The notes under the pieces are model-generated. The model was given only the letters and a program-made list of their open reading frames with translations. It did no database searches and was not told the origin of the DNA. This document shows positions 3,092 to 6,583 of a stretch of 64,000 nt of DNA, one piece after another. Numbering within the stretch: the first letter of the stretch is position 1; each line of letters begins with the position of its first letter. The DNA lies in the NCBI GenBank assembly GCA_029866965.1, contig CP123444.1, positions 909,501-973,500 on the forward strand, read 5' to 3'. The position numbers were made by a program, and so were the translations under genes. The stretch is from Flavobacteriaceae bacterium YJPT1-3. GTDB lineage: Bacteria; Bacteroidota; Bacteroidia; Flavobacteriales; Flavobacteriaceae.

Positions 3092-4252
3092 TCAGCCTCT
3101 AAAAAGGAAGAAACGGTCTTTCAATTCCTCAATAGCCGTTTCTTTATTGGTCGTGATGTAGCGCAGAGCCTCATCCGTAAATTCCTGTCCTTTTGGGGTC
3201 AGGAAAACGACTTGATTATCGATTTGGATCAGGTTATTCTTAAGTGCCAGGTCCAGAACCGATTTAGAACGCACCCGTTGCCAGTTGATGTGTTCCTGCA
3301 AATGATTTACATGACGCTCCTCCTCCTGGCTATGATTTTGAAGATGCAGTAAAAAGGTAAGCAAGGAAACTTCAATACTCTGTCGTTTTTCTTTATAGAT
3401 GACCGAGATCACGCCTCGTTTGGGAGCAAATAAGTACACCAGAAAGAACAACAGTCCTAGAACGGTAGTAATGGAACCGGCTATGGAGGCATCCAAGGCA
3501 TAGGCTACCCAATACCCGGCGACGGCGGCAACTACACCAAAGATCGAACTGAGCACGAGCATGGTTTTCAGACTATCGGTCAATAGATAAGCGGCGGCTG
3601 CCGGAGCAATGATAAGCGCCACCACCAGTACGGCTCCCACAGCATCAAAGGCACCCACTACGGTTACGCTGGACATGCTCATCAGGCCGTAGTGAATCAA
3701 GACGGGAGAAAAGCCCAGTGAAGTGGCCAATCCCTTATCAAACGTACTCAGCTTTAATTCTTTGAAGAAGGTAATCAACAGAACAAGGGTCCCCAACAGA
3801 ATGGTAGAGATGACCCAAAGCGATTTCGGACCCAGATCCATATCGCCCCAGTACAACCGATCAAATGGAGCGAAGGCAAGTTCGCCAAGCAGCACGGCAT
3901 CGATATCCAGATGGACATCATTGGCATGCTGCGCGATCAAAAGCACTCCCACGCTAAAAAAAGCAGGGAAGACCAGGCCAATAGCCGTATCTTCTTTAAC
4001 CAAACCTGTTTTTTGGATCTGCTCTACGATAAATACAGTAAGCACCCCGCTCAAAGCAGCAAGTAAGATCAACCAGGGCGAATTCAGATCTTGGGTAAGA
4101 AAAAAGCCCAATACGATGCCTGGCAATATGGAGTGGCTAATCGCATCGCTAATCATGGCCATTTTCCGCAACACCAGAAAAGTGCCCGGTAGAGCGCAGG
4201 CGATGGCCACCAAGGCGGCGATGAGCTGTATTTCTATTTGCGCATTACTCAT
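3092..4252 (-). CDS. Mn/Zn ABC transporter permease with C-terminal winged-helix extension (second permease)
   Basis: This 386-residue ABC-3 family permease (ZnuB/MntB/TroC/D type) has about eight transmembrane segments in residues 1-285, including the family segment VGAFDAVGAVLVVALIIAPAA. The remaining roughly 100 residues are soluble. They resemble a DtxR-type winged helix plus dimerisation helices (HLQEHINWQRVRSKSVLDLA, LIQIDNQVVFLTPKGQE). Its start overlaps the end of the other permease gene by 8 bp, so the two are translationally coupled. The pair probably forms a heterodimeric channel with the ATPase encoded at 5843-6583. Confidence 0.88.
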   Translation of the reverse strand: MSNAQIEIQLIAALVAIACALPGTFLVLRKMAMISDAISHSILPGIVLGFFLTQDLNSPWLILLAALSGVLTVFIVEQIQKTGLVKEDTAIGLVFPAFFSVGVLLIAQHANDVHLDIDAVLLGELAFAPFDRLYWGDMDLGPKSLWVISTILLGTLVLLITFFKELKLSTFDKGLATSLGFSPVLIHYGLMSMSSVTVVGAFDAVGAVLVVALIIAPAAAAYLLTDSLKTMLVLSSIFGVVAAVAGYWVAYALDASIAGSITTVLGLLFFLVYLFAPKRGVISVIYKEKRQSIEVSLLTFLLHLQNHSQEEERHVNHLQEHINWQRVRSKSVLDLALKNNLIQIDNQVVFLTPKGQEFTDEALRYITTNKETAIEELKDRFFLFRG

Positions 4253-5360
4253 GTTCCGGCGTATTTGGACTGTACATGGTTTCAGCTTCTTCGTAACCCT
4301 GGGGAGTCATTGACCACATTTGACCTTCAATCTGAATCAAACCCTGCTCTTCCAATTTTTTTAATGTTCTTCGGGTAAAGCCCTGAAAATTATTCAAGAT
4401 CCGAATCGCGTGAGGATGCGAAATATCCTCATGGGTCTGAGCGATCTGATGCATAAAAGCCAGGGTTTTCTTTTCCTTCAGCGTATTCCGATTGCGTTGA
4501 AAGCGAATTTCCCGAAATAGAAGGCCGCGACCCGGAGAAAAGACAAAGGACAGTAAAACAAATGCCGCCGCCACCAGAACGATCACGGGCCCGGTGGATA
4601 GATTATTACTACTGGCACTGATGGCCGTTCCAAATACCCCGGCAAAGGCACCAAAAAGGGCAGCCAGTCCAACCATGGTACTCAGTTTATTGGTCCATTG
4701 ACGGGCAGCCGCAGCCGGCGCCAACAGCATAGCACTCATCAAGACCACGCCCACGGTTTGCAAGCCCAGCACAATAGCCAGTACAATGAATGCCGTGATC
4801 AGTATATCTAAAAATCGGGTATTGAAACCCAGGGTTTTGGTATACTCTGCATCAAACAAGAGCAGTTTGAGTTCTTTCCAAAACAGCAGAAGTACGATCA
4901 AACTGACCCCGGTTACTATAGCCATCACCCAAACATCTTTTTCCACCAGTGTGGCCGCCTGACCAAATAAATACTTGTCCAATCCAGCTTGATTGGCATT
5001 GGGCAACTTCTGGATGAAGGTAAGCAGTAACATGCCAAATCCAAAGAAGAGGGAGAGTACCAATCCAAGGGCAGTATCACTTTTCAAACGGGTACGCTTC
5101 ACGATGCCCTTGATCCAGAACGTTCCGATCAGTCCACTCACCAGTGCTCCGACCAGCAAAAGATTGCTGTCTTTGACCCCGGTAATCAAAAAGGCCAGAG
5201 CGATACCTGGCAGAGCCGCATGAGAAATGGCGTCACCCAATAAACTTTGCTTCCGCAAAACCGCAAAACTTCCCAGCATCCCGCAAATACCCCCCAGCAA
5301 CGCCGTTCCCAAGGTAATGGTACGCAAGGTGTAGTTGGTAAAAAAGTCCTGGAGTTCCAT
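4245..5360 (-). CDS. Mn/Zn ABC transporter permease with C-terminal winged-helix extension (first permease)
   Basis: This 371-residue ABC-3 family permease has the core ALLGGICGMLGSFAVLRKQS, LLGDAISHAALPGIALAF and a VGVVLMSAMLLAPAAAAR segment. As in its partner, a C-terminal cytoplasmic tail of about 80 residues (from about residue 290) looks like a winged helix (HPHAIRILNNFQGFTRRTLKKLEEQGLIQIEG). Such tails are known on TroC/TroD-like permeases. The gene is followed by the other permease (8-bp overlap). It is separated from the ATPase gene by the S23 element, although permease and ATPase genes normally touch. Confidence 0.88.
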   Translation of the reverse strand: MELQDFFTNYTLRTITLGTALLGGICGMLGSFAVLRKQSLLGDAISHAALPGIALAFLITGVKDSNLLLVGALVSGLIGTFWIKGIVKRTRLKSDTALGLVLSLFFGFGMLLLTFIQKLPNANQAGLDKYLFGQAATLVEKDVWVMAIVTGVSLIVLLLFWKELKLLLFDAEYTKTLGFNTRFLDILITAFIVLAIVLGLQTVGVVLMSAMLLAPAAAARQWTNKLSTMVGLAALFGAFAGVFGTAISASSNNLSTGPVIVLVAAAFVLLSFVFSPGRGLLFREIRFQRNRNTLKEKKTLAFMHQIAQTHEDISHPHAIRILNNFQGFTRRTLKKLEEQGLIQIEGQMWSMTPQGYEEAETMYSPNTPEHE

Positions 5361-5364
5361 GGGT

Positions 5365-5406
5365 GTTAGTCGTTAGTCGTTAGTCGTTAGTCGTTAGTCG
5401 TTAGTC
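5365..5406 (+). repeat. six tandem copies of heptamer GTTAGTC
   Basis: Six perfect head-to-tail copies of GTTAGTC are followed by a partial GTT. They begin 5 bp upstream of the permease start codon (minus strand) and form the 3' border of the inserted S23 gene. The other border carries the same heptamer in inverted, degenerate form (5812-5832). Confidence 0.95.
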
Positions 5407-5428
5407 GTTTAAGAAAATTCATTGATTG

Positions 5429-5791
5429 TTACTTCTTCAAATACTTCTTTAAAGTGTGGATCATTTTTGATAATTCTATAAGCTTTTCTCGTAGACTTTG
5501 ATTATTCTCATCGTCTAAGTAGCCTCTCCTATTAGCAATTGTGGAACAGACTAAGCATTCCTGTACCGAGTTTGTAGCGATCTGCAAAAATCTATGAAAT
5601 TGGGCGTCGGTATCTCCAGCACCTTCAGCTATATTCAAAGCAATAGAACAGGCCGCACGGCGGAATTGAGACCTAAGACCATAATTTTCGTTTTCTGGAA
5701 ATTGCTCAGAAATACTATATACCTCGTCAATAAACTTCAAGCTTTTTTGATAAACCTTGAGTTCTTCAAACTTGAAAGCTTCTTCCTTCAT
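5429..5791 (-). CDS. four-helix-bundle protein, S23/IVS family
   Basis: This 120-residue all-helical protein has the family signature FEELKVYQKSLKF, then YGLRSQFRRAACSIALNIAEG. The family (23S rRNA intervening-sequence protein, also related to the accessory protein of diversity-generating retroelements) has no settled function. The gene lies between the permease and ATPase genes of one ABC importer, is co-directional with them, and is bordered by inverted heptamer repeats. I read it as an inserted mobile cassette that has left the operon readable. No reverse transcriptase or rRNA lies nearby. Confidence 0.9.
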   Translation of the reverse strand: MKEEAFKFEELKVYQKSLKFIDEVYSISEQFPENENYGLRSQFRRAACSIALNIAEGAGDTDAQFHRFLQIATNSVQECLVCSTIANRRGYLDDENNQSLREKLIELSKMIHTLKKYLKK

Positions 5792-5811
5792 CTTTAAATT
5801 ATTTCACTATC

Positions 5812-5832
5812 GACTAATGACTACCGACTACA
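5812..5832 (-). repeat. degenerate inverted heptamer copies (GACTAAC-like)
   Basis: GACTAAT, GACTACC and GACTACA follow one another with exact 7-bp period. GACTAAC is the reverse complement of the GTTAGTC unit at 5365-5406, so the S23 gene lies between inverted heptamer arrays. Confidence 0.8.
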
Positions 5833-5842
5833 GGCTTACAAC

Positions 5843-6583
5843 CTAACCTTGTACACTCACCTTATAATTAATACCATAGGTGAGCGTCAGATTATCGTCA
5901 TTGAAAATTTCCTTGACGGGTCCGGTGGCAATTCCTTTTACGTTGAGGAAGGTCACCCAGTCAAAATATTCTGGGACGGTCTGTAAGTCGTGATGTACGA
6001 CGATCAAGGTCTTTCCGGCTTTCCTTAGCTCTTTCAGGATATTGATGATGGCCCGTTCCGTGGAAGCATCCACCCCTTGAAAAGGCTCATCCATCAAATA
6101 AATCGAAGCGTTTTGCACCAATGCCCGGGCCAGAAAGATACGCTGTTGCTGACCCCCGCTCAACTGACTGATCTGCCGACTGCGAAATTCGAGCATGCCT
6201 ACCTTTTCTAGGGCCTCCAAAGCCGCTTTCTTCTCCTTTTGTCCGGGTCGTTTAATCCAACCCAGACTGCCATAGGTTCCCATCATGACCACATCGAGTG
6301 CTGTAGTGGGAAAATCCCAATCCACACTTCCCTTTTGCGGCACATAGGCTACCTTATCCACCTGCGATTGGTAACTCTTTCCAAACACCTTTACCGTGCC
6401 GGCTATAGGTTTTATGATCCCAAGGATGGATTTGATCAGCGTTGACTTACCGGCTCCATTCGGTCCCACGATGGCCATCAACACACCCTCCGGAACCGCC
6501 AGATCGATGTCCCAAAGCACGGGTTTATAATCATAGGCGACCGTGAGGTCATCCACCTGTATGGCCAATTGTTTCGCTTTCAT
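5843..6583 (-). CDS. troB: Mn/Zn ABC transporter ATP-binding protein
   Basis: This 246-residue ABC ATPase has Walker [10 protein letters not shown] (about residue 40), signature LSGGQQQR, Walker B IYLMDEP and the switch His in VVHHDL. It matches the ZnuC/MntB/TroB subfamily that powers high-affinity Mn2+/Zn2+ import. Its start overlaps the end of the binding-protein gene by 4 bp. The gap of 482 bp to the permease genes is filled by the S23 element. Confidence 0.93.

Follow-up and report, generated by a model that had tools for sequence, protein, structure and literature searches.

Between the ATPase and permease genes of a metal-importing ABC operon in Flavobacteriaceae bacterium YJPT1-3 lies a small gene of the S23 (23S_rRNA_IVP) family, bordered on its two sides by heptamer repeats of opposite orientation. 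This arrangement raises the question of whether the gene and its repeats constitute a single entity that entered the operon as such and, if so, how it might have moved and what its protein might recognize. We approached this question by analyzing the 64,000-nucleotide stretch of DNA that contains the locus (hereafter the window; Table 1) together with S23 loci from a wide range of other genomes.

The S23 cassette and its insertion site

Table 1. Features of the S23 cassette and adjoining ABC transporter genes, with positions in the window
Feature	Position	Strand	Details
ABC-3 metal-import permease, downstream of the insertion	4245-5360	minus	PF00950, E 2e-74
Cassette 3' arm	5361-5398	.	Mirror partner of 5806-5843
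GTTAGTC tandem array	5365-5409	plus	6.4 perfect heptamers; TRF 100% matches, score 90; 3' side of S23
S23 / 23S_rRNA_IVP gene (predicted four-helix bundle)	5429-5791	minus	120 aa, intact; PF05635, TIGR02436
Cassette 5' arm	5806-5843	.	Starts at the ATPase stop codon; three degenerate GACTAAC-type units
ABC transporter ATPase, upstream of the insertion	5843-6583	minus	PF00005, E 1e-30

The original prediction for this locus, six perfect copies of GTTAGTC on one side of the S23 gene and three degenerate GACTAAC-type units in the opposite orientation on the other, proved accurate on both counts. The perfect array is by far the strongest short-period array of the 64 kb, while GACTAATGACTACCGACTAC, at about 5811-5830, comprises the three degenerate opposite-orientation units, which read TAGTCGG, TAGTCAT and TAGTCGA on the minus strand. 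One detail stands corrected: the gene lies on the minus strand, and hence the perfect array is the 3' arm and the degenerate array the 5' arm. With one mismatch allowed, TAGTCNNTAGTC occurs 13 times in the window where 1.8 occurrences are expected, and none of 100 shuffles reaches that count. The 3' arm and the reverse complement of the 5' arm are identical at 30 of 38 positions, and the flank-to-flank score of the locus is 22, whereas pairing its upstream flank with the other loci instead gives 8.7 on average and at most 18. Between the arms S23 is the sole ORF of note, with profile matches to the S23/Avd families only; as predicted, nothing resembling a transposase or a reverse transcriptase (RT) is encoded inside the cassette, which thus lacks the transposase of a classical insertion sequence. 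An Rfam search recovered no family near the cassette and PADLOC no anti-phage defense families.

The S23 protein scores well above the curated cut-offs of both PF05635 (E 8e-33, 113 bits; cut-off 33.8) and TIGR02436 (E 4e-32, 110.8 bits; cut-off 24), and its AlphaFold2 model (mean pLDDT 95.8) is a four-helix bundle, so that profiles and predicted fold together place it in the S23/23S_rRNA_IVP family. The nearest solved structures to the model are 2gsc (38% identity; Foldseek TM 0.89) and 2rld, the crystals of which contain five chains each; an S23 toroid is cited in PMC4990558. Avd is a remoter structural match (Foldseek; 4dwl, 8ub7), and the bAvd and DivGenRetAVD profiles match weakly, under their cut-offs. 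Among the 80 loci listed when about 85 thousand genomes were scanned, none encodes a close relative of the protein, identities being 34-48%.

The cassette was further predicted to split a gene pair that normally touches or overlaps, and a comparison with relatives bears this out. S23 is missing from the ATPase/permease junction in all 16 relatives with permeases approximately 73-78% identical to that of the window. The stop and start codons overlap in five of these (TAATG/TAATGG-type, 5-nt gap), several further S23-less relatives have gaps of tens of nucleotides or smaller, and longer gaps are seen in three (L039, L044 and L046), two of which (L039 and L044) contain no S23 remnant and show a period-7 signal too weak to establish solo arrays. 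Because none of the relatives carries S23 there and the genes touch or nearly touch in most of them, the comparison indicates that the cassette is a derived insertion, as opposed to a gene retained at this place by vertical descent. In another relative (L043) a different small ORF, apparently coding for a membrane protein, occupies the same junction. Both ABC-3 permeases of the window (3092-5360) are longer than the ABC-3 domain (Pfam residues 11-274 of 371), and their C-terminal extension, judged by eye from the translation, resembles a winged-helix domain.

Mirror-image period-7 arms at S23 loci

If the repeats belong with the gene, heptamer borders are expected at other S23 loci, and such borders were indeed found. 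We gathered 192 loci, later extended to 222: three from the organism's own genome, about 110 from the same family or order (60 genomes), 80 from named diverse genomes (Bacteroidota, Verrucomicrobia, Planctomycetes, Chloroflexi, Proteobacteria, cyanobacteria, archaea and others) and 30 from one genus. For each of the 168 usable loci (96 + 72), we scored the match of the 130-nt upstream flank of S23 to the 130-nt downstream flank in reverse complement. Own flank pairs average 16.8 in the order and 17.4 in the diverse set, as against 8.9 and 8.6 for re-paired flanks, a difference reached in none of 5000 permutations; the mean for control ORFs is 8.8. Scores of at least 14 are attained by 68-75% of S23 loci and by 3.5% of control ORFs, and in the direct-repeat orientation the signal of S23 flanks is far weaker. 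Chance or a general complementarity of flanks is ruled out by the permuted pairs and the control ORFs. Clear arms are absent at about a quarter of S23 loci.

The arms are periodic at seven nucleotides, the excess identity reaching approximately 0.2-0.4 at lags of 7 and 14 but lying at about zero or below at every other lag except 21. Typically there are four to five units per array (4.5-5 per arm), a number suggestively close to the subunit count of known S23 rings, which is five. At some loci, irregularities in one arm are matched letter for letter in the other (33/33 positions at L069 and 28/28 at L072), and the arms therefore look like mirror copies rather than the products of two independent slippage events.

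The S23 gene is co-directional with both neighbors at 172 of 189 loci and antisense to both at none. Arrays often keep their register into the end of the upstream coding sequence (identity of 0.41 versus 0.30, p 1.6e-4), and the stop codon therefore sometimes belongs to the array; TAG is in weak excess as the upstream stop (39/89 versus 18/68, p 0.03). Some S23 cassettes lie within core operons, namely groES/groEL (L251, L254) and purC/purF-like pairs (L023, L256, L257), the gene names being taken from translations.

Heptamer sequence and the turnover of sites

The sequence of the heptamer varies between S23 loci, even inside one genome, such that dissimilar S23 genes of the same genome have heptamers no more alike (cosine 0.056) than those of different genomes (0.055). 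Similar S23 genes at unrelated sites, on the other hand, show a heptamer cosine of about 0.2 (0.23) versus about 0.05, and this similarity is confined to heptamers read in the same direction with respect to S23; thus S23 proteins of the AYQKSF type (L031, L032, L033, L035, L165 and L169) are accompanied by CAGT-containing heptamers. Two trivial sources of this correlation were rejected: a genome-wide heptamer identity, since within-genome pairs are no more alike, and missed orthologous sites, which are excluded by direct flank comparison. These sequence comparisons indicate that the heptamer belongs to the element, following the S23 subfamily and not the genome, although common descent of gene and arms could account for the link even without recognition. 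The upstream sense arm is AG-rich and C-poor, with AG fixed in more arrays than any other dinucleotide (67% of arrays; CT 14%), position-specific conservation within the heptamer being weak (variance 0.51 versus 0.40).

The dynamics of individual sites could be followed in a genus (g41) in which 77 of 78 genomes carry S23, at about eight copies each, and which is probably Chryseobacterium because the arms at L156 match those of a Chryseobacterium sediminis locus (L143). Two of its sites lie approximately 16 kb apart. Of the 30 genomes shown for recJ/nadD, about nine have a filled site, four a nearly empty one (5-13 nt) and several an array-only one. The moxR/DUF58 site is filled in several genomes, consists of short inverted arrays without the gene in seven (73-102 nt), holds an S23 gene with an internal deletion in two and is a relic in several others. 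In several close genomes, G106 and G129 among them, the array-only site bears the heptamer of the S23 gene located at the other site.

Arrays without the gene also occur in the genome of YJPT1-3, where at least 12 TAGTCGG array loci lack S23, including arrays of 16 copies (L338, about 1552-1675; C1:576054-576170) and 10 copies (L343, 857-935). A second S23 gene of this genome (L006; C1:2046691-2047008), interrupted by an in-frame TAA, lies among molybdopterin-synthesis genes, with approximately 14 TTGAGGTG octamers as its 5' arm and degenerate GACTAAC-type units on its 3' side.

Nature of the S23 cassette

We consider it reasonably probable that the cassette represents a widespread class of small (about 0.4-0.5 kb) IVS-like insertion elements, the S23 protein of which recognizes its own heptamers. 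Such an element would occupy the gap from the stop codon of one gene to the start codon of the next on the same strand and would have come to the ABC operon as one unit. An S23 homopentamer ring would recognize the AG-containing heptamers on one strand, perhaps with each subunit engaging roughly one heptamer, and would thereby set the ends of the element, with strand breakage and joining supplied by host replication or repair enzymes or by another enzyme; the protein itself would probably be expressed through read-through from the host operon. The complementarity of the arms would be kept at the DNA level, either by their joint movement or by template-switch correction of quasi-palindromes, and not by selection on an RNA stem, while array-only loci would represent deletion or non-autonomous derivatives. 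The original observations thus hold and are general, and their interpretation fares well in part: the insertion is derived, other S23 loci share the heptamer borders, and targeting of the heptamer array by S23, which we infer, gains plausibility from the association of subfamily with heptamer and from the array-only copies.

The 23S rRNA intervening sequence (IVS) of Coxiella burnetii, inserted in helix 45, is approximately 0.4 kb long and likewise combines an S23 ORF with terminal inverted repeats (PMC4990558); two to three tandem GACAGAT heptamers, variable between strains, lie just upstream of its S23 gene (Warrier et al. 2016, PMC4990558). The cassette shares the ORF and, by its arm identity and flank score, the terminal inverted repeats, but both of its arms are heptamer arrays and it lies between protein genes. 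Because it is outside rRNA we do not file it as a classical IVS; the two may nonetheless be of one kind. More tentatively, operon-borne S23 cassettes and 23S rRNA IVSs might together form one ancient class of elements without a recognizable transposase or RT, in which a pentameric ring recognizes the mirror heptamers of its own subfamily, the two thus coevolving, and the repeat can spread gene-less.

An alternative is that the cassette acts as an IVS at the RNA level, with the arms pairing in the transcript, RNase III excising the S23 segment and the stem maintaining complementarity. The arms do pair in the predicted RNA fold of the cassette (z -2.6) and S23 is co-oriented with the operon, yet this reading appears unlikely. 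Selection on an RNA stem should make G:U mismatches in the arms outnumber A:C, and no such excess is seen (188 versus 209 and 100 versus 128; in the strict counts, 32 versus 34 and 22 versus 21); the stem is hence not visibly selected, in which respect the cassette also departs from the Coxiella IVS, and the complementarity of the arms presumably arises or persists at the DNA level. RNA processing at the arms could occur as a by-product.

It is distinctly unlikely that S23 is instead a settled regulator of host operons, binding the arrays in mRNA or DNA as operators at gene junctions. The model for such a function is TRAP, a ring protein with NAG repeats of a period of about 5. By analogy, S23 would combine a ring with AG-containing repeats on one strand, in a number near that of its subunits; it differs in its period of 7, its unrelated fold and the mirror-image second arm, and S23 binding is hypothetical. 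The dN/dS of S23 is approximately 0.11-0.12 at recJ/nadD and moxR/DUF58, indicating purifying selection, and the protein is therefore useful to something, be it the element or the host. This, together with long vertical persistence at groES/groEL, purC/purF, recJ/nadD and other sites, also fits a settled host function, as do the strand bias of the units and the array-only loci that carry the heptamer of an S23 gene elsewhere in the genome. However, the presence of S23 varies among close species, the functions of its sites are unrelated, pseudogenes and deletions are common, and a mirror-copy second arm is superfluous for an operator.

We regard as decidedly improbable the view that the arrays are general intergenic repeats produced by slippage and template switching, between which S23, like other small inserts, merely ends up. 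The arrays might represent a host repeat family of this kind, since S23-less intergenic arrays exist, some of them flanking a hairpin-rich repeat, and solo arrays are common; against this, the heptamers differ among the S23 copies of one genome, and track the S23 subfamily between genomes, and the density of period-7 arrays beside S23 is 17 times that in the remainder of these loci (with coding DNA counted). The hairpin-rich dispersed repeat (CGATACAT...CACTCAATGACC...TGTATCGA) abuts TAGTCGG arrays at L340, L341, L345, L346 and L348 (C1 at approximately 870.9, 875.1, 1999.0, 2607.9 and 2621.5 kb, respectively), and at L346 and L348 it has inverted heptamer arms on both sides; the arms may thus also flank cargo other than S23. 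Intergenic TAACTGA heptamers have been described from Beggiatoaceae, Cyanobacteria and Bacteroidetes (MacGregor 2015, PMC4679880). Like the arrays considered here, these are tandem heptamers in intergenic gaps by start codons, gained and lost among close species, but that work covers direct arrays of a single sequence and does not mention S23. As short inverted structures without a gene, array-only loci also recall MITEs and other non-autonomous elements, from which they differ in having tandem heptamers of variable sequence as ends; neither a transposase nor, as the flanks diverge, a target-site duplication is established for them.

It is exceedingly improbable that a resident RT or Y1 transposase mobilizes the cassette in trans, for in spite of the structural similarity of S23 to the Avd of diversity-generating retroelements and a correlation of S23 with Y1 counts (rho 0.47, 60 genomes), S23 correlates more strongly with genome size (rho 0.54) and not with RT (rho 0.04), and neither enzyme is needed: the organism's own genome has no RVT_1 or Y1_Tnp match, and among 38 S23-bearing relatives 25 lack RVT_1, 20 lack Y1_Tnp and 15 lack both. 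While S23 is predicted to share the four-helix-bundle pentamer fold of Avd, its locus also differs from a diversity-generating retroelement in having no RT, template or variable repeat.

In the open literature, as distinct from subscription papers and preprints, we found no account of inverted heptamer arms at S23 genes, the only related statement being the GACAGAT remark for Coxiella; provisionally, the S23 insertion element favored here is apparently undescribed. The S23/IVP family reaches about eight copies per genome in one genus and ranges from Bacteroidota to Chloroflexi and archaea, while the origin and function of IVSs continue to be described as unclear. Arms of inverted heptamers that track the subfamily give this family a testable substrate, may tie the 23S rRNA IVS to operon-borne elements and hint at mobility that involves no known recombinase. 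S23 elements may also account for part of the scattered intergenic heptamer arrays. At loci of Candidatus Chloroploca (L142), Thiohalocapsa (L145) and Sphaerospermopsis (L119) many more heptamer arrays lie within 10 kb of S23, and in the first two these are similar to the arms of the S23 cassette found there.
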